Of a DNA stretch of 64,000 nt, positions 7,775 through 38,190 are shown piece by piece. The translations under genes were made by a program, and so were the position numbers. Numbering within the stretch: the stretch's first letter is position 1; every line of letters starts with the position of its first letter. This DNA is from Gemmatimonadaceae bacterium (GTDB lineage: Bacteria; Gemmatimonadota; Gemmatimonadetes; Gemmatimonadales; Gemmatimonadaceae): contig DATLUQ010000058.1 in NCBI GenBank assembly GCA_035533015.1, forward strand, positions 1-64,000, in the 5' to 3' direction. The notes under the pieces were generated by a model. It had not been told where the DNA came from, did not search any database, and saw nothing but the letters and a program-made list of their open reading frames with translations.

Positions 7775-7871
7775 TGGCGGGAGTGCATGGGAATCGAACC
7801 CACCCAACCCGACGTCGTCAGGTCGCAACAGTTTTGAAGACTGCGGAAGCCACCAGGCCCCCTCCACTCCC
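7775..7871 (-). tRNA. selC: Selenocysteine tRNA (anticodon TCA)
   Basis: A 97-nt tRNA with encoded CCA on the minus strand. Hallmarks are the long acceptor stem (GGGAGTG with CACTCCC), a 6-bp D stem with a 4-nt TGGT loop, anticodon arm GCAGT-CTTCAAA-ACTGT with UCA anticodon, a long variable arm, and T arm GTGGG-TTCGATT-CCCAT. It reads UGA as selenocysteine. The 5' end is only 4 nt after the selD stop, so the two are almost certainly co-transcribed. The eighth acceptor pair is a G-G mismatch as I align it. Confidence 0.95.
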
Positions 7872-27139: not shown

Positions 27140-29463
27140 TAGTCGATTCCGCGTTCGAGATTCGCCTGCGCGACGACGAGCGTCTTACGGCCCACCGCGT
27201 CGTCGTCGAAATCCACCCGCACCTTGGTCTGCGCGCCAGCACCGGTGATCTCGGCGATGGTGCCGGAGCCGAACTTCCGGTGCTTGACCCGCGCTCCCAC
27301 GGCGATGGTCGCCGCGTCCTGCGATTCGTCTTCGACGGCCACCCCGCCGATGGGCCGGCCGGGGCGGCGGGCCGCCGCCGAACTCGAAGGGAAAATATCG
27401 TCGTCGAAGATCTGCGACGAGCCTCCCCCCCATCCACCACTGCGACGGGTGTCGGCGCGTCCGGCGAATCCCGCCATCGCACCGCGCCCGCTGCTCCGTA
27501 CGCGGATGGTGTCCTGCCGGTCGAGCATGCCGTCGGGCACCGCGGCGAGGAAGCTCGACGGCCGCGACGGGAGGAACTCGCCGTTGCGGCGGCGCGACTC
27601 GGCGTGCAGCAGGTACAGGCGACGCTCGGCGCGTGTGATCCCCACGTAGAACAGGCGCCGCTCCTCCTCGAGCATTTTCGGATCGTCGTAGGCCCGGGCG
27701 AGCGGAAAGAGACCGTCTTCGAGGCCGGCGATGAACACCACGGGAAACTCGAGCCCCTTGGCGTTGTGCAGCGTCATCAGCGTCACGGCGTCGGCGTCGG
27801 CGGCCAGCTTGTCGACGTCGGCCACGAGGCTGGCGCGCTGGAGAAAGACATCGAGCGGACTGAGGCCAACCTCGCCCTCGACGTCGGCCACCGTTTCCGA
27901 GGCGCCGGCGATGAGTTCACGCACATTGTCGAGGCGGTCGCGCGCCATCTCCTCACCCTCCGCGCCCAGGTACTCGGTGTACCGGATCTCGGCGACGAGC
28001 GCACTGAGCAACTCGTCCACGGCCGACTCGCGTGCCCGGTCGCGGAACCGGGCGGTGAGCGCGCAGAAGTCGGCGAGTGCGGTGCGCGTTGCGGGGCGGA
28101 CGCCATCCAGGCAGTCGTCGCGCGTCGCAGCGTCGAACAGCGGGATCCCCGCGGCCCTCGCGCGCTCGGCGAGCAGGTCCACGGTGGCATCCCCAACGCC
28201 GCGGCGGGGGACGGCGATCGCGCGGCGGAACGCCTCGTCGTCGGAGGGGTTCGCGATGAGCTTGAGGTACCCCATGAGGTCGCGGATCTCGCGGCGGTCG
28301 TAGAACCGAACGGCGCCGACCAGGCGGTACGGCATGGCGTGACGGCGCAGCGCCTCTTCCAGGGCGCGGCTCTGGGCGTTGGTCCGGTACAGCACGGCGA
28401 AGTCGCGGAGCTGCCACCCGTCGGCCGTGCGCTGACGGCGCAGTTCCTCGACCAGCCAATCGGCCTCGTCGCGCTCGTCGAGGGCGCGCACCGCGGTCAC
28501 TCGATCGCCGCCGCTGCGCGTGGCGCGCAGGGTCTTGCCCATGCGATCGGTGTTGACGGAGATGACGGCGTTGGCCAGTGCGAGAATGGGCGGCGTGGAG
28601 CGGTAGTTCTCCTCCAGGCGCACGACGTGAGCGTTGGGAAAGTCCTTCTCGAAGTCGAGGATGTTGCGGATGTCGGCACCGCGCCAGCCGTAGATGGACT
28701 GGTCGTCGTCGCCGACCACGCACACGTTGCCGTGCCCGGCGCCGAGCAACTGCACGAGCCGGTACTGCGCGCGGTTGGTGTCCTGGTACTCATCCACGAG
28801 CAGGTGGTGGAAGCGCGCGCGAAAGCGGTCGAGTTCGTCGGGGTGCTGTTCCAGGATCCGGACGGGAAGCAGCAGCAGGTCGTCGAAGTCGGCCGCGTTG
28901 GCCCGGCGCAGCGTGGGCTCGTAGTCGGCGTACACCGCGGCCACGGCCTGGGCGAACGGGTCGCGGGCCAGCGATGCGAATTCTTCGGGGGTGACGAGGG
29001 CATTCTTGGCGTCGGAGATGGCGCCACGCACGGCGCGTACCGCGTACTGCTTGGGCGAGACGCGGTGGCGCTCCATGAGGCGCTTCACCACCGCCTCGAC
29101 ATCGTTCTCGTCATAGATGGTGTACGCGGGAGCACGGCCCACGAGGTGCGCGGTAGCGCGCAGGAGCCGTGCGCCGACACTGTGGAAGGTGCCGGCCCAC
29201 ATCCCTGCCGGCTCGTGCTCGAGCAGCCCGGCAATGCGGTCACGCATCTCGCCGGCGGCCTTGTTCGTGAACGTGACGGCGAGGATCCGCGACGGGCGCA
29301 CCCCGTGCTCCAGGATCAGGCGCGCGATGCGCCGGGTGAGCACGCGCGTCTTGCCGGAGCCGGCGCCAGCGAGCACGAGCAGAGGGCCTTCGTGATGGAG
29401 CACCGCTTCGCGCTGCGCGGGATTGAGCCCGTCGAGCAGCGCATCTTGTGAGGAGCGCGACAT
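27139..29463 (-). CDS. pcrA: ATP-dependent DNA helicase, PcrA/UvrD family
   Basis: A 774-residue superfamily 1A 3'-5' helicase for nucleotide excision repair and removal of nucleoprotein blocks. Motifs in order are GLNPAQREAV (Q motif), LAGAGSGKT, DEYQDTN, GDDDQSIYGWRGA, EENYRSTPP, TLHNAKGLEFP and VGITRAERRLYL. The C-terminal tail (VKHRKFGSGTIAEI) is the Tudor-like RNA polymerase-binding domain of PcrA, which favours pcrA over uvrD. ATG 29463 overlaps the kinase stop in TGATG. Confidence 0.96.
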   Translation of the reverse strand: MSRSSQDALLDGLNPAQREAVLHHEGPLLVLAGAGSGKTRVLTRRIARLILEHGVRPSRILAVTFTNKAAGEMRDRIAGLLEHEPAGMWAGTFHSVGARLLRATAHLVGRAPAYTIYDENDVEAVVKRLMERHRVSPKQYAVRAVRGAISDAKNALVTPEEFASLARDPFAQAVAAVYADYEPTLRRANAADFDDLLLLPVRILEQHPDELDRFRARFHHLLVDEYQDTNRAQYRLVQLLGAGHGNVCVVGDDDQSIYGWRGADIRNILDFEKDFPNAHVVRLEENYRSTPPILALANAVISVNTDRMGKTLRATRSGGDRVTAVRALDERDEADWLVEELRRQRTADGWQLRDFAVLYRTNAQSRALEEALRRHAMPYRLVGAVRFYDRREIRDLMGYLKLIANPSDDEAFRRAIAVPRRGVGDATVDLLAERARAAGIPLFDAATRDDCLDGVRPATRTALADFCALTARFRDRARESAVDELLSALVAEIRYTEYLGAEGEEMARDRLDNVRELIAGASETVADVEGEVGLSPLDVFLQRASLVADVDKLAADADAVTLMTLHNAKGLEFPVVFIAGLEDGLFPLARAYDDPKMLEEERRLFYVGITRAERRLYLLHAESRRRNGEFLPSRPSSFLAAVPDGMLDRQDTIRVRSSGRGAMAGFAGRADTRRSGGWGGGSSQIFDDDIFPSSSAAARRPGRPIGGVAVEDESQDAATIAVGARVKHRKFGSGTIAEITGAGAQTKVRVDFDDDAVGRKTLVVAQANLERGID

Positions 29464-30626
29464 CAATGAAGTATAACGTCGAACGTCGCACCCCGGTCGG
29501 TGGGCACGAGCACCAAACGCCCTCCGTGGTTCTCCTCGACGATGCGTTTGGCGAGCGACAGCCCGATCCCCCATCCGGCCTGCTTCGTGGAGAAGCCGGG
29601 TTCGAACACGCGGTCGCGCAGTTCGCGGGGAATGCCGGGGCCTTCGTCGGCCACCCGGATGCGGTAGCCCCGTTCGGGAAGCCGGGCTGCGGAGAGCGCG
29701 ATCCGGCCACCCCGCCCTGCCATGGCATCGAGCGCGTTCTTGACCAGCACCTCGACCGCCCATTCGAGCAGCACGGCGTCGCCGGACACGGTCAGCGCGC
29801 CGTCGGGATGCTCGACGTCGATGACGATGGTGTTGGCGAGGGTCGGCACGCGCGCCCGGAAGTAGTTCGCCACGCGATCGACGAGCGCCGTGAGATCCAC
29901 CGGATCGCGCTTGGGCTCCCGTCCGATGCGTTCAAAGCGATGCGCCACGCGATCCAGCCGGTCCACGTCGGCGCGCATGTGGCGCGCCATGGCCTGCGCC
30001 GCCGGGTCGTGCTCGCCGCGTTCGTCGAGCAGTTCGATCCATCCGGCGATGCTGGACAGCGGGGTGCCGAGCTGGTGCGCCGACTCGCGCGCCATGCCGG
30101 CCCACAGGTGCTCGCGCGCCGCGTCGCTGCGCGTGCGGATGATGAAGAACCCGGCGAGCAGCAGCAGCAGGGCGGTGATCGCCTGGAGCGGGGGAATGAT
30201 CCGCAGCCAGTACACGAGGGGCGTGTTGCCGTAGTGCACCTGCAGCAGCGCGTCCACCACTGGCGGGTTCTGCCGATCGAGGACGAGCACGTAGCGGCGG
30301 ATCCCCGGGTTGTCGTTGCCCAAGGAATCGTGCGGGTCGAACGGCAGGTTGGCATGGAAGAGCGGCACGCCGGTGCCTTCGGTGACGATGAGCGGGACGC
30401 CCTGTTCGCGGATGTCGCGCGAGATGTCGAGCAGCGCCTGAAGCGCGGCGCCTTCGGTGGTATCGCCGAGGGCGCGGTAGACCCGGGCATACATGGTGCT
30501 CGACCGTGCCGCCGCGACGCGCAGCGAGTTCACCACGTGTTGCGTGTAGAACACGTATGAGCCGAGCAGGAGGACGATCAGCGTGGCAACGAGCACTTCG
30601 GGCGCGCCGCGACGCATGCGGATCAC
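29463..30626 (-). CDS. Membrane sensor histidine kinase
   Basis: A 387-residue kinase. Helices at about 11-28 and 147-163 flank an extracytoplasmic sensor of roughly 115 residues with no recognised fold. The phosphoacceptor helix is ARESAHQLGTPLSSIAGW (His184). The ATPase domain shows VKNALDAMAG (N box), VADEGPGIP (G1) and GWGIGLSLAKRIVEE (G2). No response regulator is adjacent, so the partner is elsewhere. I chose GTG 30626 because it overlaps the serS stop in GTGA; ATG 30617 is possible. Confidence 0.9.
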   Translation of the reverse strand: MIRMRRGAPEVLVATLIVLLLGSYVFYTQHVVNSLRVAAARSSTMYARVYRALGDTTEGAALQALLDISRDIREQGVPLIVTEGTGVPLFHANLPFDPHDSLGNDNPGIRRYVLVLDRQNPPVVDALLQVHYGNTPLVYWLRIIPPLQAITALLLLLAGFFIIRTRSDAAREHLWAGMARESAHQLGTPLSSIAGWIELLDERGEHDPAAQAMARHMRADVDRLDRVAHRFERIGREPKRDPVDLTALVDRVANYFRARVPTLANTIVIDVEHPDGALTVSGDAVLLEWAVEVLVKNALDAMAGRGGRIALSAARLPERGYRIRVADEGPGIPRELRDRVFEPGFSTKQAGWGIGLSLAKRIVEENHGGRLVLVPTDRGATFDVILH

Positions 30627-31897
30627 GCGAGCCGATCCAACCCTAGGTACGGCTGCAGCGCCACCGGAATCGCGACCGATCCATCGGGCTGCTGGTGATG
30701 CTCGAGGAGGCACGCGATGGTGCGCGGGAAGGCGAGCCCCGAGCCATTGAGCGTGTGGACGAACCTCGGCTTCTCGCCCGGCGCCGGCCGGTAGCGGATG
30801 TTGGCCCGCCGCGCCTGGAAGTCGGTGAACGTGCTGCACGACGATACTTCGAGCCACGCGCCCACTCCCGGCGCCCACGCTTCGAGGTCGTACGTCTTGG
30901 CCGACGAGAAGCCGGTGTCTCCGGCGGCCAGCAGCTTGCGGCGATACGGGATCTCCAGTCGTTCGAGCATCGTCTCGGCATGCCGGGTGAGCACCTCGAG
31001 CTGGCGCTCGGAGTCGTCGTCGGCGGAGTAGCGCACCAGTTCGACCTTGTCGAACTCATGGGTCCGCAGGATGCCCCGCGTATCCTTCCCGGCCGATCCC
31101 GCCTCGCGACGGTAGCATCGCGAATAGGCCACGAACGCCATCGGCAGTTGGGCGCCGTCCAGGATCTCGTCGCGGTAGAGATTGGTGACCGGGACCTCGG
31201 CGGTGGGGATCAGAAAGAGGTCGTCGCCCCGGGTGCCGTAGGCATCGTCCTCGAACTTGGGAAGCTGGCCGGTGCCGGTCATCGTCGAGCGGGTGACGAG
31301 CTGCGGCGGCCAGATTTCCTCGTACCCATGCTCGCGTGAGTGGACGTCCATGAACATCGAGAGCAGCGAGCGCACGAGGCGCGATCCGCGGCCGCGATAG
31401 ACGACGAACCCGGAGCCGCTGATCTTCGCCGCGCGTTCCTGATCGAGCATCCCGAGGTTCGCCATGATCTCCCAGTGCGGCCGGACGCCCGTCGGCGCTC
31501 GCGGCGTGCCCCACGCCTTCACGATGACGTTGTGGGCCTCCCCACCCTCGGGCACGTCGGGGAGTGTGACGTTGGGGATCTCGAGCAGCACCTGATGGAG
31601 CGCCACTTCGATCTCGGCGAGGCTGGCCTCCTCGGCGGCGATGGCAGCGCCCAGCGCTCTCCCCTCCGCGATCAGATCGCCGGCGGCTTCCTTGGCGCGT
31701 TTGCGGCGGGCCACTTCCTGGGAAGCGGCATTGCGCGCCGCCTTCTTCTCTTCTACCGCGGTGATGAGCGCGCGGCGGTCCTTGTCGAGCGCTTCACCCC
31801 GCGCGATGACGGGCAGAAGCGCGTCGGCCGCTCCTCGCCGGCGCGCCGCGTTGCGCAGCACGTCGATCCGTTCGCGCAGCATACGGGGGTCGTGCAT
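30623..31897 (-). CDS. serS: Seryl-tRNA synthetase
   Basis: A 424-residue class II synthetase. An N-terminal antiparallel coiled coil (about 30-100) binds the long variable arm of tRNA-Ser. Motif 2 is visible as GSAGKDTRGILRTHEF, and motif 3 lies in the GSGLAFPRTIACLLEHHQ segment. ATG 31897. It is followed by the sensor kinase, pcrA and gatCAB. Two serine tRNA genes lie near 61 kb. Confidence 0.97.
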   Translation of the reverse strand: MHDPRMLRERIDVLRNAARRRGAADALLPVIARGEALDKDRRALITAVEEKKAARNAASQEVARRKRAKEAAGDLIAEGRALGAAIAAEEASLAEIEVALHQVLLEIPNVTLPDVPEGGEAHNVIVKAWGTPRAPTGVRPHWEIMANLGMLDQERAAKISGSGFVVYRGRGSRLVRSLLSMFMDVHSREHGYEEIWPPQLVTRSTMTGTGQLPKFEDDAYGTRGDDLFLIPTAEVPVTNLYRDEILDGAQLPMAFVAYSRCYRREAGSAGKDTRGILRTHEFDKVELVRYSADDDSERQLEVLTRHAETMLERLEIPYRRKLLAAGDTGFSSAKTYDLEAWAPGVGAWLEVSSCSTFTDFQARRANIRYRPAPGEKPRFVHTLNGSGLAFPRTIACLLEHHQQPDGSVAIPVALQPYLGLDRLA

Positions 31898-31900
31898 GGC

Positions 31901-32473
31901 TCACTTGGTCGGCAGGCCGGACGTGAGGGTCACGTACCCGCAGTTGGGATCCGAGGCGAAACGCACGTACAGCGCCCGGTGCACCGGATCAATGCTGTCG
32001 ACGACGAACTTGCCGTAGTACGAAGAACCGAGCGAGTAGGCGGTGCACGTAGTCGTGTCGTATACGTTGAAGCCGATCGTCGTCCCCACCGGAACGACGA
32101 GCGTGGAATCGACGACGTAGCCGGACTTGGCGGCCTGGGTGTAGTCGTCGAAGTTCGCGTTGATCTTCTGGAGGCCGACCGCGACCGTCGTGACGAGTGA
32201 GTCGGCCACCCGGCGCGCCGGATACACGACGACGCGACCCTGGGAATCGATGTCCAGCGCGACGTTGAACGCGAAACTCGCGCTGACGACCACCGGCGAG
32301 CCCGTGAGGAAATCGAGCCCCGCCGGCGTGGACGGCGCCGCGCCGTTGAGCGCGTATACGATCGGAGAAGTGATCGTGACCGGGAACTGGGCCTTGGGAG
32401 CGCTGAGCGCTCCGCAACCCGTACCCAACACGACCAACGCCGCGCTGAAGATGGTTGGGATTCGTGGCATCAT
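31901..32473 (-). CDS. Putative lipoprotein of unknown function
   Basis: A 190-residue exported protein. The N-terminus is a signal peptide ending at an imperfect lipobox (VVLGTGCG, Cys about 20). The mature part is rich in Val, Thr, Ser and Asp and predicted beta. Two further cysteines (TTTCTAYS and DPNCGY) may form a disulfide. No known family recognised. It heads the serS operon behind a clear promoter and ends 3 nt before serS. ATG 32470 is an alternative start. Confidence 0.7.
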   Translation of the reverse strand: MMPRIPTIFSAALVVLGTGCGALSAPKAQFPVTITSPIVYALNGAAPSTPAGLDFLTGSPVVVSASFAFNVALDIDSQGRVVVYPARRVADSLVTTVAVGLQKINANFDDYTQAAKSGYVVDSTLVVPVGTTIGFNVYDTTTCTAYSLGSSYYGKFVVDSIDPVHRALYVRFASDPNCGYVTLTSGLPTK

Positions 32474-32514: not shown

Positions 32515-32543
32515 AGGATACCGGATGCGCCGAGCGACTTCAA
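32515..32543 (-). promoter_or_regulatory. Promoter for lipoprotein-serS-kinase-pcrA-gatCAB operon
   Basis: The -35 box TTGAAG (32543-32538) and -10 box TATCCT (32520-32515) are separated by 17 nt on the minus strand. The start near 32508 leaves a leader of about 35 nt. Confidence 0.7.
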
Positions 32544-32557
32544 GCGATTGCCGTCGC

Positions 32558-32586
32558 TTGACTTCGCTTTGGGCGATCTCTAGCTT
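32558..32586 (+). promoter_or_regulatory. Promoter for the roadblock-regulator-manC cluster
   Basis: The -35 box TTGACT (32558-32563) and -10 box TAGCTT (32581-32586) are separated by 17 nt. It lies back to back with the minus-strand promoter at 32515-32543. The start near 32593 is followed by an AAGGAG ribosome binding site. Confidence 0.65.
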
Positions 32587-32611: not shown

Positions 32612-32965
32612 ATGGCGAGCATTCGTGACCTCGTCGCCGCCATCCGGCAGCGCGATGGGGTGGAGGCCGCGGTCGTCCTCGGCCGCGACGGACTGTTGAT
32701 AGACAGCCAGGTGGTCGCCGGCCTCGATCCGGAGGATCTGGCGGCGCGCATCCCGCCCATCATCGCCTCGTCCGACGACCTCGGCGCGGCCAGCGGACGC
32801 GGCGAATTGGTGACGGCCGTGCTCGAGCACCGCGACGGACTGGCTCTCGTGTCCGCCCTGACCAGCGAGGCCGTGCTGTTCGTGCTGCTCGCGCCGGGAG
32901 CGAACGTCGGCCAACTGCTGTACGAATTGCGCCGAAATCGAGAGCACATCGCCGCACTCGTTTGA
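32612..32965 (+). CDS. Roadblock/LC7 domain protein (MglB-like)
   Basis: A 117-residue protein consisting of one roadblock/LC7 domain. The N-terminal helix IRDLVAAIRQRDGVEAAVVL, the strand GRDGLLIDSQ and the C-terminal helix NVGQLLYELRRNREHI are characteristic. Such proteins regulate small Ras-like GTPases, as MglB does MglA, but no GTPase gene is adjacent. ATG 32612 has AAGGAG 6 nt upstream. It is transcribed with a response regulator and sugar-nucleotide genes. Confidence 0.85.
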   Translation: MASIRDLVAAIRQRDGVEAAVVLGRDGLLIDSQVVAGLDPEDLAARIPPIIASSDDLGAASGRGELVTAVLEHRDGLALVSALTSEAVLFVLLAPGANVGQLLYELRRNREHIAALV

Positions 32966-32968
32966 CCT

Positions 32969-33385
32969 GTGTCGTCCCCGCGCGCGGAATGCCATGTGCT
33001 CGTCGCCGACGACGAACCGCACATCGGTCGGATCATCAAGATGAAGCTGGAGCAGGGCCCGTTCCGGGTCTCCCTCGCATATGACGGCCGGGAAGCGCTC
33101 GCCCTGTTGGAACAGTCGCCCGACATCGGTCTCGTGCTGCTGGACGTGATGATGCCGTACCAGAGCGGGCTGGATGTGCTGGCGATCATGCGCGCCGACC
33201 CGCGGTGGCGCGACGTGCCGTGCATCATGCTCACGGCAGCCGGCGAGGCCGAGTACCAGCGGCGCGCGATGGCCACGGGGGCCAGCGAATTCCTCACCAA
33301 GCCGTTCAGCCCCAAGCGCCTGTATGCGCGCGCCGCGGAACTGGTCGGGCTCTCATCCGATGGCATGGGAGCGGACATCGCATGA
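32969..33385 (+). CDS. Response regulator, receiver domain only
   Basis: A 138-residue CheY-like receiver with no output domain. The acidic pair is in VLVADDEPHIG, the phosphoacceptor Asp59 in LVLLDVMMP, the conserved Thr89 in IMLTAAG and Lys111 in FLTKPF. It starts at GTG 32969, 3 nt after the roadblock stop, and its stop overlaps the manC start in ATGA. It likely signals by protein contact, perhaps through the roadblock partner (inference). Confidence 0.93.
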   Translation: MSSPRAECHVLVADDEPHIGRIIKMKLEQGPFRVSLAYDGREALALLEQSPDIGLVLLDVMMPYQSGLDVLAIMRADPRWRDVPCIMLTAAGEAEYQRRAMATGASEFLTKPFSPKRLYARAAELVGLSSDGMGADIA

Positions 33386-34416
33386 CTCGATGGGTGGTGG
33401 TCCTGGCGGGAGGCGTGGGATCGCGGTTCTGGCCGGTCAGCACGCCCGAGCGGCCCAAGCAGCTCCTGCCGCTGGTGAGCGAGCAGCCCCTGCTCCGGGA
33501 CGCGCTCGACCGGGTGCGCCCGTTGGCAGACGGTGGGCACACGCTGATACTCACCAACGCGTCGCTCGTTCCCGCCATCGCGGCGCTGGCCCCCGAGATC
33601 CCGCCGGCCAACCTGGTGGCCGAACCGCGGCCGGCGGGCACCGCCGCGGCGCTGGCCTGGGCGGCGCACCGCATCGCAACCGCCGACGGTCCCGAGGCGA
33701 CCATGATCTCGGTGCACGCCGACTGGGCGGTGGGCGACGCCGATGGCTTTCGCCGCGCCCTGACCCGCGCCGCAGACGCTGCCGAGCGCCACACCAGCTT
33801 GGTGACCGTGGGCATCGTGCCCTCCCGTCCCGATCCGGGATTCGGCTACATCCAGCCGGCTGACGAAGTGGCGCCCGGTGTGTGGCGGGTGGCGCGGTTC
33901 GTAGAGAAGCCCGACGCGGCGCGGGCCGCGGAAATGTGCGTGCAGGGCTACCTCTGGAATTCCGGGATCTTCGTGTGGCGCGTGGGCGACTATCTGGAAG
34001 AACTGGCGGCGCATACGCCGGAGGTGGCGCCTGCGCTGGCGGCCCACGGCAACGACCTGGGGGCGTTCTTCGCGCACGTCACGCCGATTTCGGTTGACGT
34101 TGGCGTGATGGAGCGGAGCGCGCGCGTGCTGGTAATGCCCGGCGACTTCGGCTGGGACGACATTGGCGTGTGGGGGGCGCTGCTCCGGGTTCGCCGACGC
34201 GACGCCCAGGGCAACGCGATGTCCGGCGACGCCTACGCCGTCGAGGCCCGCAACAACGTGGTGCACGCCGAACATGGCACCGTCGTGCTGTATGGCGTGC
34301 ATGACCTCGTGGTGGTCACGCGCGACGGCCTGACCGTGATCACGACGGTGGAGAAGTCGCACGCGCTCAAAGCACTGCTGGCGCAACTCCCGGCGCCGGT
34401 GCGAGACCAGCGATGA
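33382..34416 (+). CDS. manC: Mannose-1-phosphate guanylyltransferase
   Basis: A 344-residue nucleotidyltransferase making GDP-mannose from GTP and mannose 1-phosphate. VLAGGVGSRFWPVSTPERPKQLLPL is the pyrophosphorylase signature, and RFVEKPDAARA and WNSGIFVWR follow as expected. There is no phosphomannose isomerase domain. ATG 33382 and the stop both sit in ATGA overlaps, linking it to the response regulator and the GlmU-like gene. GDP-mannose would feed polysaccharide or glycan synthesis. Confidence 0.93.
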   Translation: MTRWVVVLAGGVGSRFWPVSTPERPKQLLPLVSEQPLLRDALDRVRPLADGGHTLILTNASLVPAIAALAPEIPPANLVAEPRPAGTAAALAWAAHRIATADGPEATMISVHADWAVGDADGFRRALTRAADAAERHTSLVTVGIVPSRPDPGFGYIQPADEVAPGVWRVARFVEKPDAARAAEMCVQGYLWNSGIFVWRVGDYLEELAAHTPEVAPALAAHGNDLGAFFAHVTPISVDVGVMERSARVLVMPGDFGWDDIGVWGALLRVRRRDAQGNAMSGDAYAVEARNNVVHAEHGTVVLYGVHDLVVVTRDGLTVITTVEKSHALKALLAQLPAPVRDQR

Positions 34417-35612
34417 CCGAGCTTTACCTGTACGACGACGCGCAGGCACGGGCGTTCCAGCCGTTCTCGCTAATGAGGCCGACAGGCGAGCTGCGGGCCG
34501 GCGCCCTGCTGCTGCGCGAGCGATGGGAGTGGACGCTGGACCGGCCGGCGGCCGGCCAGGTGAGCGCCGCGGTGCTGCGCGACTTCGCGGAGGCGGGGGC
34601 GCCGCGCGCGGCCTCCGGCCCGCTCCCGGCGGGCGCCATCCTCGCCAATACGCGCTGCGCCGTGGCGCTCGTGGCGGCGCCAGACGCCGACGTGTGGCGG
34701 TGCAACGGCCGCGTGGCCGCCGTGCGGCTCCGCGCGCCGCTGGCGCTGGGCGATCTGCGGAACGGCCAGTGCGCGCTCGAGGAACTGGTGGCACCGGGAG
34801 CGCGGAGCGCGGAAATCGTGGGGCGGTGGATCGACGCGGTGTGGGACTTCATCGGCGATCTGCCCGCGCAGTTGACCGAGGACATCGCCCATCTGCGCGC
34901 CGGGGCGGCGCCGCTGGCCGCGGACCAGGGCGCGCGCACGGGGCACCACCTGGTGCTGGTGGAGCGGGACGCCGTGGTGGAGCCGATGGTGTTCTTCGAC
35001 GTGACGGCTGGCCCGGTGTTGGTGCGGGAGGGGGCCACCGTGCAGGCGTTCACGCGCCTCGTGGGGCCGTGCGTGGTGGGCCGACACTCGGTGGTGTCCG
35101 CCGGCCGCGTCGCCGCGAGTTCGATCGGCGAGGCATGCAAGGTCCACGGCGAACTGAGCACGTCGATCTTGCTCGGCCACAGCAACAAGGGACACGAGGG
35201 CTTCGTGGGACACTCGTACCTGGGACGGTGGGTGAACCTTGGTGCCGGCACCACGACGAGCAATTTAAAGAACACATATGGACCCGTATCGCTGTGGACG
35301 CCGGAAGGGATGCGCGACACCGGACTGCAGTTCCTGGGGGCGATGCTCGGCGACCACGCGAAGACCGGGATCGGCGTGCGGCTCACCACGGGGACGGTGG
35401 TGGGCGCCGGCGCGAACGTATTCGGTGGGTCGGTGATGCCCAAGGTGGTGCCGCCGTTCGCGTGGGGTGACGCCCCGCCCTTCGGCACGCACGAGTTCGA
35501 CCGGTTCCTGATGACCGCGGAACGGATGATGCAGCGGCGCGGAGTGTCATTGACCGAGGCCGCCCGTGCGCAGCTGCGCGCGGCATACGCCGCGCGCTGG
35601 ACGGTGGAGTAG
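34413..35612 (+). CDS. GlmU-like sugar nucleotidyltransferase/acyltransferase
   Basis: A 399-residue protein. The N-terminal half opens LYLYDDAQARAFQPFSLMRP, as in the alternative Bacteroidota GlmU family (TIGR03991). The C-terminal half (about 205-360) is a left-handed beta helix of hexapeptide repeats, including NLGAGTTTSNLKNTYG and GHSYLGRWVNLG. It may carry out the GlmU steps to UDP-GlcNAc or a related sugar. No classical glmU is in the window, so substitution is possible but unproven. It overlaps manC in ATGA. Confidence 0.8.
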   Translation: MTELYLYDDAQARAFQPFSLMRPTGELRAGALLLRERWEWTLDRPAAGQVSAAVLRDFAEAGAPRAASGPLPAGAILANTRCAVALVAAPDADVWRCNGRVAAVRLRAPLALGDLRNGQCALEELVAPGARSAEIVGRWIDAVWDFIGDLPAQLTEDIAHLRAGAAPLAADQGARTGHHLVLVERDAVVEPMVFFDVTAGPVLVREGATVQAFTRLVGPCVVGRHSVVSAGRVAASSIGEACKVHGELSTSILLGHSNKGHEGFVGHSYLGRWVNLGAGTTTSNLKNTYGPVSLWTPEGMRDTGLQFLGAMLGDHAKTGIGVRLTTGTVVGAGANVFGGSVMPKVVPPFAWGDAPPFGTHEFDRFLMTAERMMQRRGVSLTEAARAQLRAAYAARWTVE

Positions 35613-35613
35613 C

Positions 35614-36429
35614 ATGCGCCTCTGGGTGCTGGGCAGCGGGAGCGCCGGCAACGCCGTGCTGATCGAGGCGGCCGAGGGCCGCATCCTGATCGACGCGGGG
35701 TTCGGCGTGCGCACGCTGGCGGCTCGGCTCACCGCGGTGGGAGTGGCGCCGGAATCGATCGAAGCATGCGTCATCACACACGAGCACACGGACCATCTGA
35801 AGGGTGCGGCGGCCGCGGTCCGCCGCTGGGGATGGACGCTGCACGCCAGCCGTGGCACCGTGGCGAGCGCCGCCGAGTTGGCGGGGACGCGCGTGCAGGT
35901 GTTCGACGCCGGCGCGGCACTCGCCTTCTCGACGATGGACGTGGCCACGACGCGCACCCCGCACGATGCGGCCGAGCCGGTCGGGGTGGTGGTGACGGCG
36001 CGAGGCAGCGGCGCGCGGGCCACGGTCTGCACCGACATCGGACACGTGAGCGACGGCGTGCGAGCGCTGTGCCGCGACGTGGATATCCTGGTGCTCGAGT
36101 CGAACCACGACGAGGGGATGCTGCGCGCCGGCCCCTACCCGGCCGTGGTGCAGGCTCGTATCGCCGGCGACCACGGGCATCTGGCCAACCGCCACGCCGC
36201 CGCCCTCATTCGCGACAGCGTCACGCGGCGGGCGCGCCACGTCGTGCTCGCGCATCTGAGCCAGAACTGCAATGCACCGGAGGTGGCGCGAGCGGCCACG
36301 GAGCGCGAGCTCAAGCGCACGGTGTATCGCGGAGAGGTGGTCACGGCGCGCCAGAGCGAAATCGTGGGGCCGTTCGACGCGGCGGGCGGCGGTCGCGACA
36401 CCTCGCGGCAGTACTCGCTCACGCTGTAG
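35614..36429 (+). CDS. MBL-fold metallo-hydrolase, YycJ/WalJ-like
   Basis: A 271-residue metallo-beta-lactamase-fold hydrolase. The metal motif is THEHTDHLKG (His56, His58, Asp60, His61), later ligands include the Asp in TVCTDIGHVSD, and the C-terminal HVVLAHLSQNCN is typical of the YycJ branch, reported as exonucleases. ATG 35614 is 1 nt after the GlmU-like stop. The connection to the sugar genes is unclear. Confidence 0.85.
   Translation: MRLWVLGSGSAGNAVLIEAAEGRILIDAGFGVRTLAARLTAVGVAPESIEACVITHEHTDHLKGAAAAVRRWGWTLHASRGTVASAAELAGTRVQVFDAGAALAFSTMDVATTRTPHDAAEPVGVVVTARGSGARATVCTDIGHVSDGVRALCRDVDILVLESNHDEGMLRAGPYPAVVQARIAGDHGHLANRHAAALIRDSVTRRARHVVLAHLSQNCNAPEVARAATERELKRTVYRGEVVTARQSEIVGPFDAAGGGRDTSRQYSLTL

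Positions 36430-36543: not shown

Positions 36544-38190
<1,647 letters not shown>

Follow-up and report, generated by a model that had tools for sequence, protein, structure and literature searches.

A roadblock protein and a CheY-like receiver as separate accessory genes at a conserved sugar-nucleotide locus of Gemmatimonadota

In the window analyzed here (64,000 nucleotides, positions 1 to 64,000 of contig DATLUQ010000058.1, from the 3.03-Mb, 66-contig assembly GCA_035533015.1 of a Gemmatimonadaceae bacterium), genes for a small roadblock/LC7 protein and a single-domain CheY-like receiver stand directly ahead of genes for a ManC-type mannose-1-phosphate guanylyltransferase, an alternative GlmU and a hydrolase of the metallo-β-lactamase (MBL) fold. 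We find that this gene order is old and conserved in the Gemmatimonadota, a widespread and largely uncultured group of soil bacteria, and that the roadblock and receiver genes occupy separate accessory slots in it and do not form an obligate pair. We tentatively propose, at somewhat less than an even chance, that the two proteins are adaptors of an MglA/two-component circuit that are co-expressed with envelope-precursor enzymes.

Conservation of the gene order

We compared 146 loci, made up of the window, 45 other loci of the class with the roadblock gene, 20 loci of roadblock-free genomes, and 80 named loci. The loci are not all from different genomes, and some end early; the 126 loci that carry the roadblock gene hold 120 distinct genes, six of which appear in two loci each. 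Two loci with other roadblock proteins (L080 and L081) did not enter the order counts, the rows for L171 and L172 in one neighborhood reading were not used, and the roadblock genes of L077 and L079, missed by tblastn, were recovered by profile. Wherever the contig continues, the gene directly 3' of the roadblock gene is that of the receiver or manC (124/124 loci; receiver in 102, manC in 22, contig end in 2). Its upstream neighbor is a divergent lipoprotein-like gene in all 123 loci with sequence there, the contig ending in the other 3. The next-gene result rules out a chance grouping, and because of it we consider the order to be old. The commonest string, found in 63 of the 146 loci, runs kinase-serS-lipoprotein divergently from roadblock-receiver-manC-alternative glmU-MBL, and ATGA overlaps recur at the receiver-manC joint (66/107) and the manC-alternative glmU joint (89/129). 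A rearranged form is seen in L173 and L174 (f6), where manC-alternative glmU is followed by lipoprotein-serS-kinase-uvrD on one strand. The sequence-only reading that first drew attention to this grouping had named an order confined to this one genome as a result that would refute it; instead, the co-directional, tightly spaced set is kept far beyond its source.

Of 119 genomes of the class, 46 have the roadblock by protein search, and its profile matched 180 of 298 genomes of the phylum, a count that takes in weak paralogue matches. We took for paralogues both the 11 second matches lying off the locus (E 9e-7 to 4e-4) and the weak matches in genomes without a roadblock at the locus. The closest named relatives, at 94 to 95% identity, come from two Gemmatimonadota metagenome-assembled genomes (MAGs), REEB322 and REEB316. 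Titles naming Gemmatimonadota or one of its subgroups account for most of the 80 named loci. Three contigs bearing a gemmatimonad-type roadblock are titled Planctomycetota (L139), Candidatus Kuenenia (L145) and Kofleriaceae (L153); these are probably mislabeled or contaminated MAGs.

The features of the locus in the window are as follows:

32612-32965, +, roadblock/LC7 gene (ATG start, 117 amino acids; PF03259 at 32.5 bits against a cut-off of 23)
32969-33385, +, single-domain receiver gene (GTG start, 138 amino acids; PF00072 at 89.1 bits)
33382-34416, +, ManC-type mannose-1-phosphate guanylyltransferase gene (ATG start, 344 amino acids; PF00483 at 114.3 bits, above cut-off)
34413-35612, +, alternative GlmU gene (ATG start, 399 amino acids; TIGR03991 at 311.3 bits against a cut-off of 225.3)
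35614-36429, +, MBL-fold hydrolase gene (ATG start, 271 amino acids; PF12706 at 65.3 bits)
31901-32473, -, divergent lipoprotein-like gene (190 amino acids), a conserved neighbor
30623-31897, -, serS (PF02403 and PF00587), a conserved neighbor
29463-30620, -, sensor histidine kinase gene (HATPase_c at 67.4 bits, above cut-off; HisKA at 23.9 bits, just below its cut-off of 26.9)
32558-32586, +, promoter conserved across loci: TTGACT (32558-32563), 17 nucleotides, TAGCTT (32581-32586)
32540-32561, no strand, operator-like interrupted palindrome TCAA-N14-TTGA, whose right arm is the -35 box

The five co-directional genes are joined as first described, by gaps of 1 to 4 nucleotides or ATGA overlaps: +3 nucleotides between the roadblock and receiver genes, -4 (ATGA) at each end of manC, and +1 ahead of the MBL gene, on whose end groEL converges at 36544. 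On the divergent side, the genes run outward as the lipoprotein-like gene, serS, the sensor kinase and uvrD. Elsewhere in the window, a selenocysteine tRNA is predicted at 7775-7871 on the minus strand.

The proposal that one promoter serves the whole set is backed by a conserved element, TTGAC followed after 17 to 19 nucleotides by TAnnnT, lying 35 to 90 nucleotides upstream of the roadblock gene in 105 of 126 loci versus 0.1% of 6300 single-base shuffles. The -35 stretch in those 105 loci is GCTTGACTTC. A simple consensus promoter scan does not call the TTGACT/TAGCTT pair. The palindrome, as TCAA-N14-TTGAC, occurs in 43 of 125 roadblock loci, and its two arms co-vary in some relatives; it is a possible repressor or activator site. 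We also considered a regulon governed by this palindrome and rejected it, as CAAGC-N10-GCTTGAC has 5 matches at 3 places genome-wide versus 4 for a control pattern.

Independent turnover and the enzyme core

The roadblock and receiver genes come and go separately. In a tally of the search lists for the 119 genomes of the class, 26 genomes have both genes, 20 have only the roadblock, 17 have only the receiver, and 56 have neither. A tree built from serS and manC of 66 loci shows 6 changes of the roadblock and 7 of the receiver. The enzymes are kept where both are absent: of the 56 genomes lacking both genes, 55 have alternative GlmU, and among 11 such loci examined, manC is found in 11 and the MBL gene in 9. 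The earlier reading treated the roadblock and receiver as one unit, which these observations do not support. An obligate pair was likewise rejected, although the test is weak given so few pairs: in random sets of six independent pairs, the receiver went the same way as the roadblock in 0.0, the opposite way in 0.3, and was unchanged in 5.7.

Where the receiver is found, it is found here. Its 42 best matches in the 119 genomes (139 to 222 bits) all lie at the manC/alternative glmU locus, as does that of G027 (125.6 bits), so that 43 of 119 genomes carry it there. It adjoins manC in all nine loci examined from the receiver-only genomes, and in the receiver-only genome G050 (G050:C1:735495-737064) it lies 14 nucleotides before alternative glmU, a gap too short to hold manC. 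Relocation of the receiver in genomes where the locus lacks it was considered and rejected; the best off-locus matches score at most 131 bits and, among the matches listed, lie within open frames of at least 235 amino acids, which suggests ordinary response regulators.

These patterns bear on two further explanations. In the first, co-expression is all that joins the genes: the two small proteins would serve pathways other than that of the enzymes, their genes being carried at the head of a housekeeping operon linked to growth, and would have nothing functional to do with ManC or GlmU. We regard this as a distinct possibility. It accommodates the independent comings and goings of the two genes while the enzymes stay, as well as the general stability of the region, with uvrD, the kinase and serS on its other side, and the lack of fusion proteins (no open frame carries two of 14 profiles above 30 bits). 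However, manC or the receiver adjoins the roadblock wherever the contig continues, and a tie without function should have been lost in more places; the confinement of the 42 best receiver matches to this locus also counts against it. The second, the idea of the sequence-only reading, is direct allosteric control: the roadblock, the phosphorylated receiver, or both would act on ManC or alternative GlmU by binding and thereby determine how much sugar nucleotide is supplied. The overlap of the receiver and manC genes would suit a stoichiometric complex, and the 17 genomes that have only the receiver still carry it at the locus. Even so, we think such direct control improbable, as alternative GlmU does without both proteins in nearly every genome lacking them, fusions are absent, and our literature search found no precedent.

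ManC scores 239.8 bits against the bifunctional family TIGR01479 (cut-off 372.95) and covers only positions 4 to 347 of 467, the isomerase domain being absent; by length and profile coverage, it is predicted to be monofunctional. Alternative GlmU is present in 115 of the 119 class genomes. It is likely the main UDP-N-acetylglucosamine (UDP-GlcNAc) enzyme of the cell, since none of the six matches to canonical GlmU in the source genome is above cut-off; the best of these, at 92.9 bits, is to a hexapeptide-repeat nucleotidyltransferase that could be a second UDP-GlcNAc enzyme. The MBL gene is found in 118 of the 146 loci, some of which end early. Seven loci (L040, L120, L126, L129, L134, L144 and L157) lack alternative glmU and have the MBL gene next after manC; L040 and L126 share one roadblock gene, and the genome of L040 (G075) has no alternative GlmU match.

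The lipoprotein-like gene is present in 143 of the 146 loci. The window copy has no Pfam family, and Cys20, Asp74, Cys143, Lys155 and Cys178 are invariant in 49/49 aligned copies, whose majority consensus contains neither His nor Met. Its model (predicted local distance difference test score, pLDDT, 89.8) resembles HmuY-type heme-binding lipoproteins, with Z scores of 9.2 to 10.9 to two HmuY entries, one HmuY analogue, PinO and BfrB and of 4.2 to the next entry, all from one aligner; Foldseek with the same model returned no E value under 0.001.

The two small proteins and their possible partners

The roadblock protein is predicted to adopt the roadblock fold along its whole length (pLDDT 95.4, single-chain prediction). 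Structural matches to the model include an Asgard roadblock (9jue, Z 18.6), MglB (6hjm, Z 17.0, with MglB entries at 15 to 17) and MglC (7ct3, Z 11.6). The solved chains closest to it in sequence are an Asgard roadblock (7f8m, E 3e-16) and CvnB5 (3leq, E 1.8e-15), with MglC at 2.8e-5 and MglB at 3.5e-5. Counted from the first position of the profile, complete copies are 116 to 120 amino acids long in 125/125 and have no C-terminal extension. All 125 carry Ala45 at the place of MglB Ser57 (aligned through the genome's own MglB), which the accessible text of PMC7949163 gives as one of two residues with a demonstrated MglA interaction. This short roadblock protein is an orphan and not the genome's MglB, because a separate MglB-like protein adjoins an MglA and keeps that Ser. 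It is more like MglC or CvnB than like the MglB GTPase-activating protein (GAP).

Could the roadblock nonetheless be a second GAP for an MglA-type GTPase? Its fold is near that of MglB, and an MglA-type GTPase is present in all 46 roadblock genomes. Against this stand the replacement of the MglA-contact Ser by Ala in every copy, the missing C-terminal extension, and the Ser kept by the MglB-like protein beside MglA, and we consider a second GAP very improbable.

The sequence-only reading had held that no GTPase or kinase lies beside the two signaling genes. Its first half stands: the four genes on either side of the roadblock (receiver, manC, alternative glmU and MBL; lipoprotein, serS, kinase and uvrD) include no mglA and no other GTPase gene. 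Its second half is inexact, as the sensor kinase gene lies 2.0 kb away in the same block. A look for MglA elsewhere, which that reading had proposed, found two MglA-type GTPases in the source genome, both on other contigs than the roadblock locus. One is in a recR/dnaX neighborhood beside the Ser-retaining MglB-like protein (L080). The second (L081, 6450-8756) occurs with a roadblock protein, a below-cut-off roadblock match, a TPR-roadblock protein and an adjoining DnaA-ATPase-domain protein. Across the class, MglA-type GTPases occur in the 46 roadblock genomes without exception versus 26 of the 73 without the roadblock (Fisher p 2e-14, kinship ignored). Because the genome also encodes three PilT-family ATPases above cut-off, an MglA/pilus circuit is possible.

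In the receiver, D14, D15, D59, T89 and K111 are invariant in 14/14 aligned sequences and correspond to the acidic pair, phospho-Asp, Thr/Ser and Lys of CheY-like receivers; these 14 stop no more than about 30 residues past the domain. A sensor kinase gene is present in 123 of the 146 loci, and its product in the window (29463-30620) is a candidate phosphorylation partner.

The reading that we favor, with the caution stated at the outset, builds on the genes and their order, the conserved promoter, the predicted fold, the independent turnover and the co-occurrence with MglA, and to these we add by inference a single transcript, a dimer, the partners, phosphorylation and the direction of the link. 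The core would be an old Gemmatimonadota envelope-precursor operon of manC, alternative glmU and the MBL hydrolase gene, with two promoter-proximal accessory slots. The first slot would hold the orphan roadblock, most likely a small homodimeric adaptor like MglC and not a GAP, and one of the two MglA-type GTPases from other parts of the genome would serve as its GTPase side. The second would hold the CheY-like receiver, most likely phosphorylated by a histidine kinase (that of the divergent block or another) and acting by protein binding. Co-transcription would match the amounts of the two adaptors to those of the enzymes supplying GDP-mannose and UDP-GlcNAc, and a surface or polarity circuit would thereby be tied to envelope-polysaccharide supply.

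Several observations weigh against this reading. The contacts and phosphorylation of the adaptors are inferred, and the two genes are gained and lost independently on the tree. Nine loci that extend to uvrD have the receiver but no kinase, and another 29 loci have the kinase but no receiver. The conserved D-G in the first roadblock hairpin may be general to roadblocks. The receiver lacks the disordered and Glu-rich tail of RomR, so the parallel with MglC and RomR is loose. The association of the roadblock with MglA loses significance when kinship is taken into account: 1 to 2 of six independent pairs agree and none contradict, six pairs are too few for the link to reach significance, and kinship may explain much of the co-occurrence. 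Because the match to MglC is partial, we rank the co-expressed adaptors first, co-expression alone second and direct enzyme control third.

A bolder form of the adaptor proposal can also be considered. Ragulator roadblock scaffolds link Rag GTPases to nutrient state. Loosely by this analogy, a bacterial small-GTPase circuit could be wired to sugar-nucleotide supply. The roadblock adaptor and a receiver open to phosphorylation would be produced at a constant ratio to ManC and the probable main GlmU, and the two would couple the state of MglA, together with a two-component signal, to how much envelope-polysaccharide precursor there is. We hold this to be unlikely, though worth stating. The constant position of this one orphan roadblock family next to GDP-mannose and UDP-GlcNAc genes throughout the class yields a concrete, testable hypothesis for it, namely that G-protein or two-component signals are tied to envelope-precursor supply, and the independent losses of roadblock and receiver offer natural controls.

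Comparison with known systems

Our literature search, which left subscription papers largely outside, found no description of a roadblock-receiver-sugar-nucleotide grouping. One of the closest known systems is MglC of Myxococcus xanthus, described in the accessible portions of three papers as a short roadblock without N- or C-terminal extensions and without GAP activity of its own, which acts between the receiver-domain protein RomR and the MglA/MglB pair (PMC10329633, PMC7949163, PMC12719032). The present roadblock, at 117 amino acids, is likewise short and free of extensions. Among its conserved residues are D26 in the first hairpin (123/125), R107 (117/125) and R110 (122/125). It perhaps shares the two charged binding faces of MglC, given in the available text of PMC10329633 as F25/D26/I28 and K104/R106/R110; its R25/D26/L28 and R107/R108/R110 were matched to these by residue number only. 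RomR consists of a receiver, a disordered region and a Glu-rich helix (PMC10329633, available text), whereas the receiver here has no such tail and is often absent, and unlike MglC, the roadblock is encoded with sugar-nucleotide genes and bears only weak sequence similarity (E 2.8e-5, as above). In length, and perhaps in its charged faces, the roadblock matches MglC but the receiver lacks the RomR tail, and the two proteins may work like such a module.

The roadblock also resembles MglB, the GAP of MglA, in its fold, but it differs in having no GTPase gene within four genes, no C-terminal extension and Ala in place of Ser57. In not being within four genes of mglA, it is like the orphan MglB-family proteins of a 2014 survey, where, according to the accessible text, 328 of 749 family members were orphans and none had then been experimentally characterized (PMC4316618); it is unlike them in its sugar-nucleotide context, none being named in that text. 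With the conservons CvnA-D, as portrayed in the part of PMC13343842 that is accessible, it shares a CvnB-type roadblock (cvnB5, 3leq) and a nearby histidine kinase gene. In contrast to the conservons, the block holds no CvnC-type or GTPase gene, and the kinase gene is on the opposite strand with two genes between. Finally, the receiver is like other CheY-like single-domain receivers in possessing the phospho-acceptor and switch residues, and it is set apart from them by its fixed position at the manC/alternative glmU locus across the class wherever it is found.

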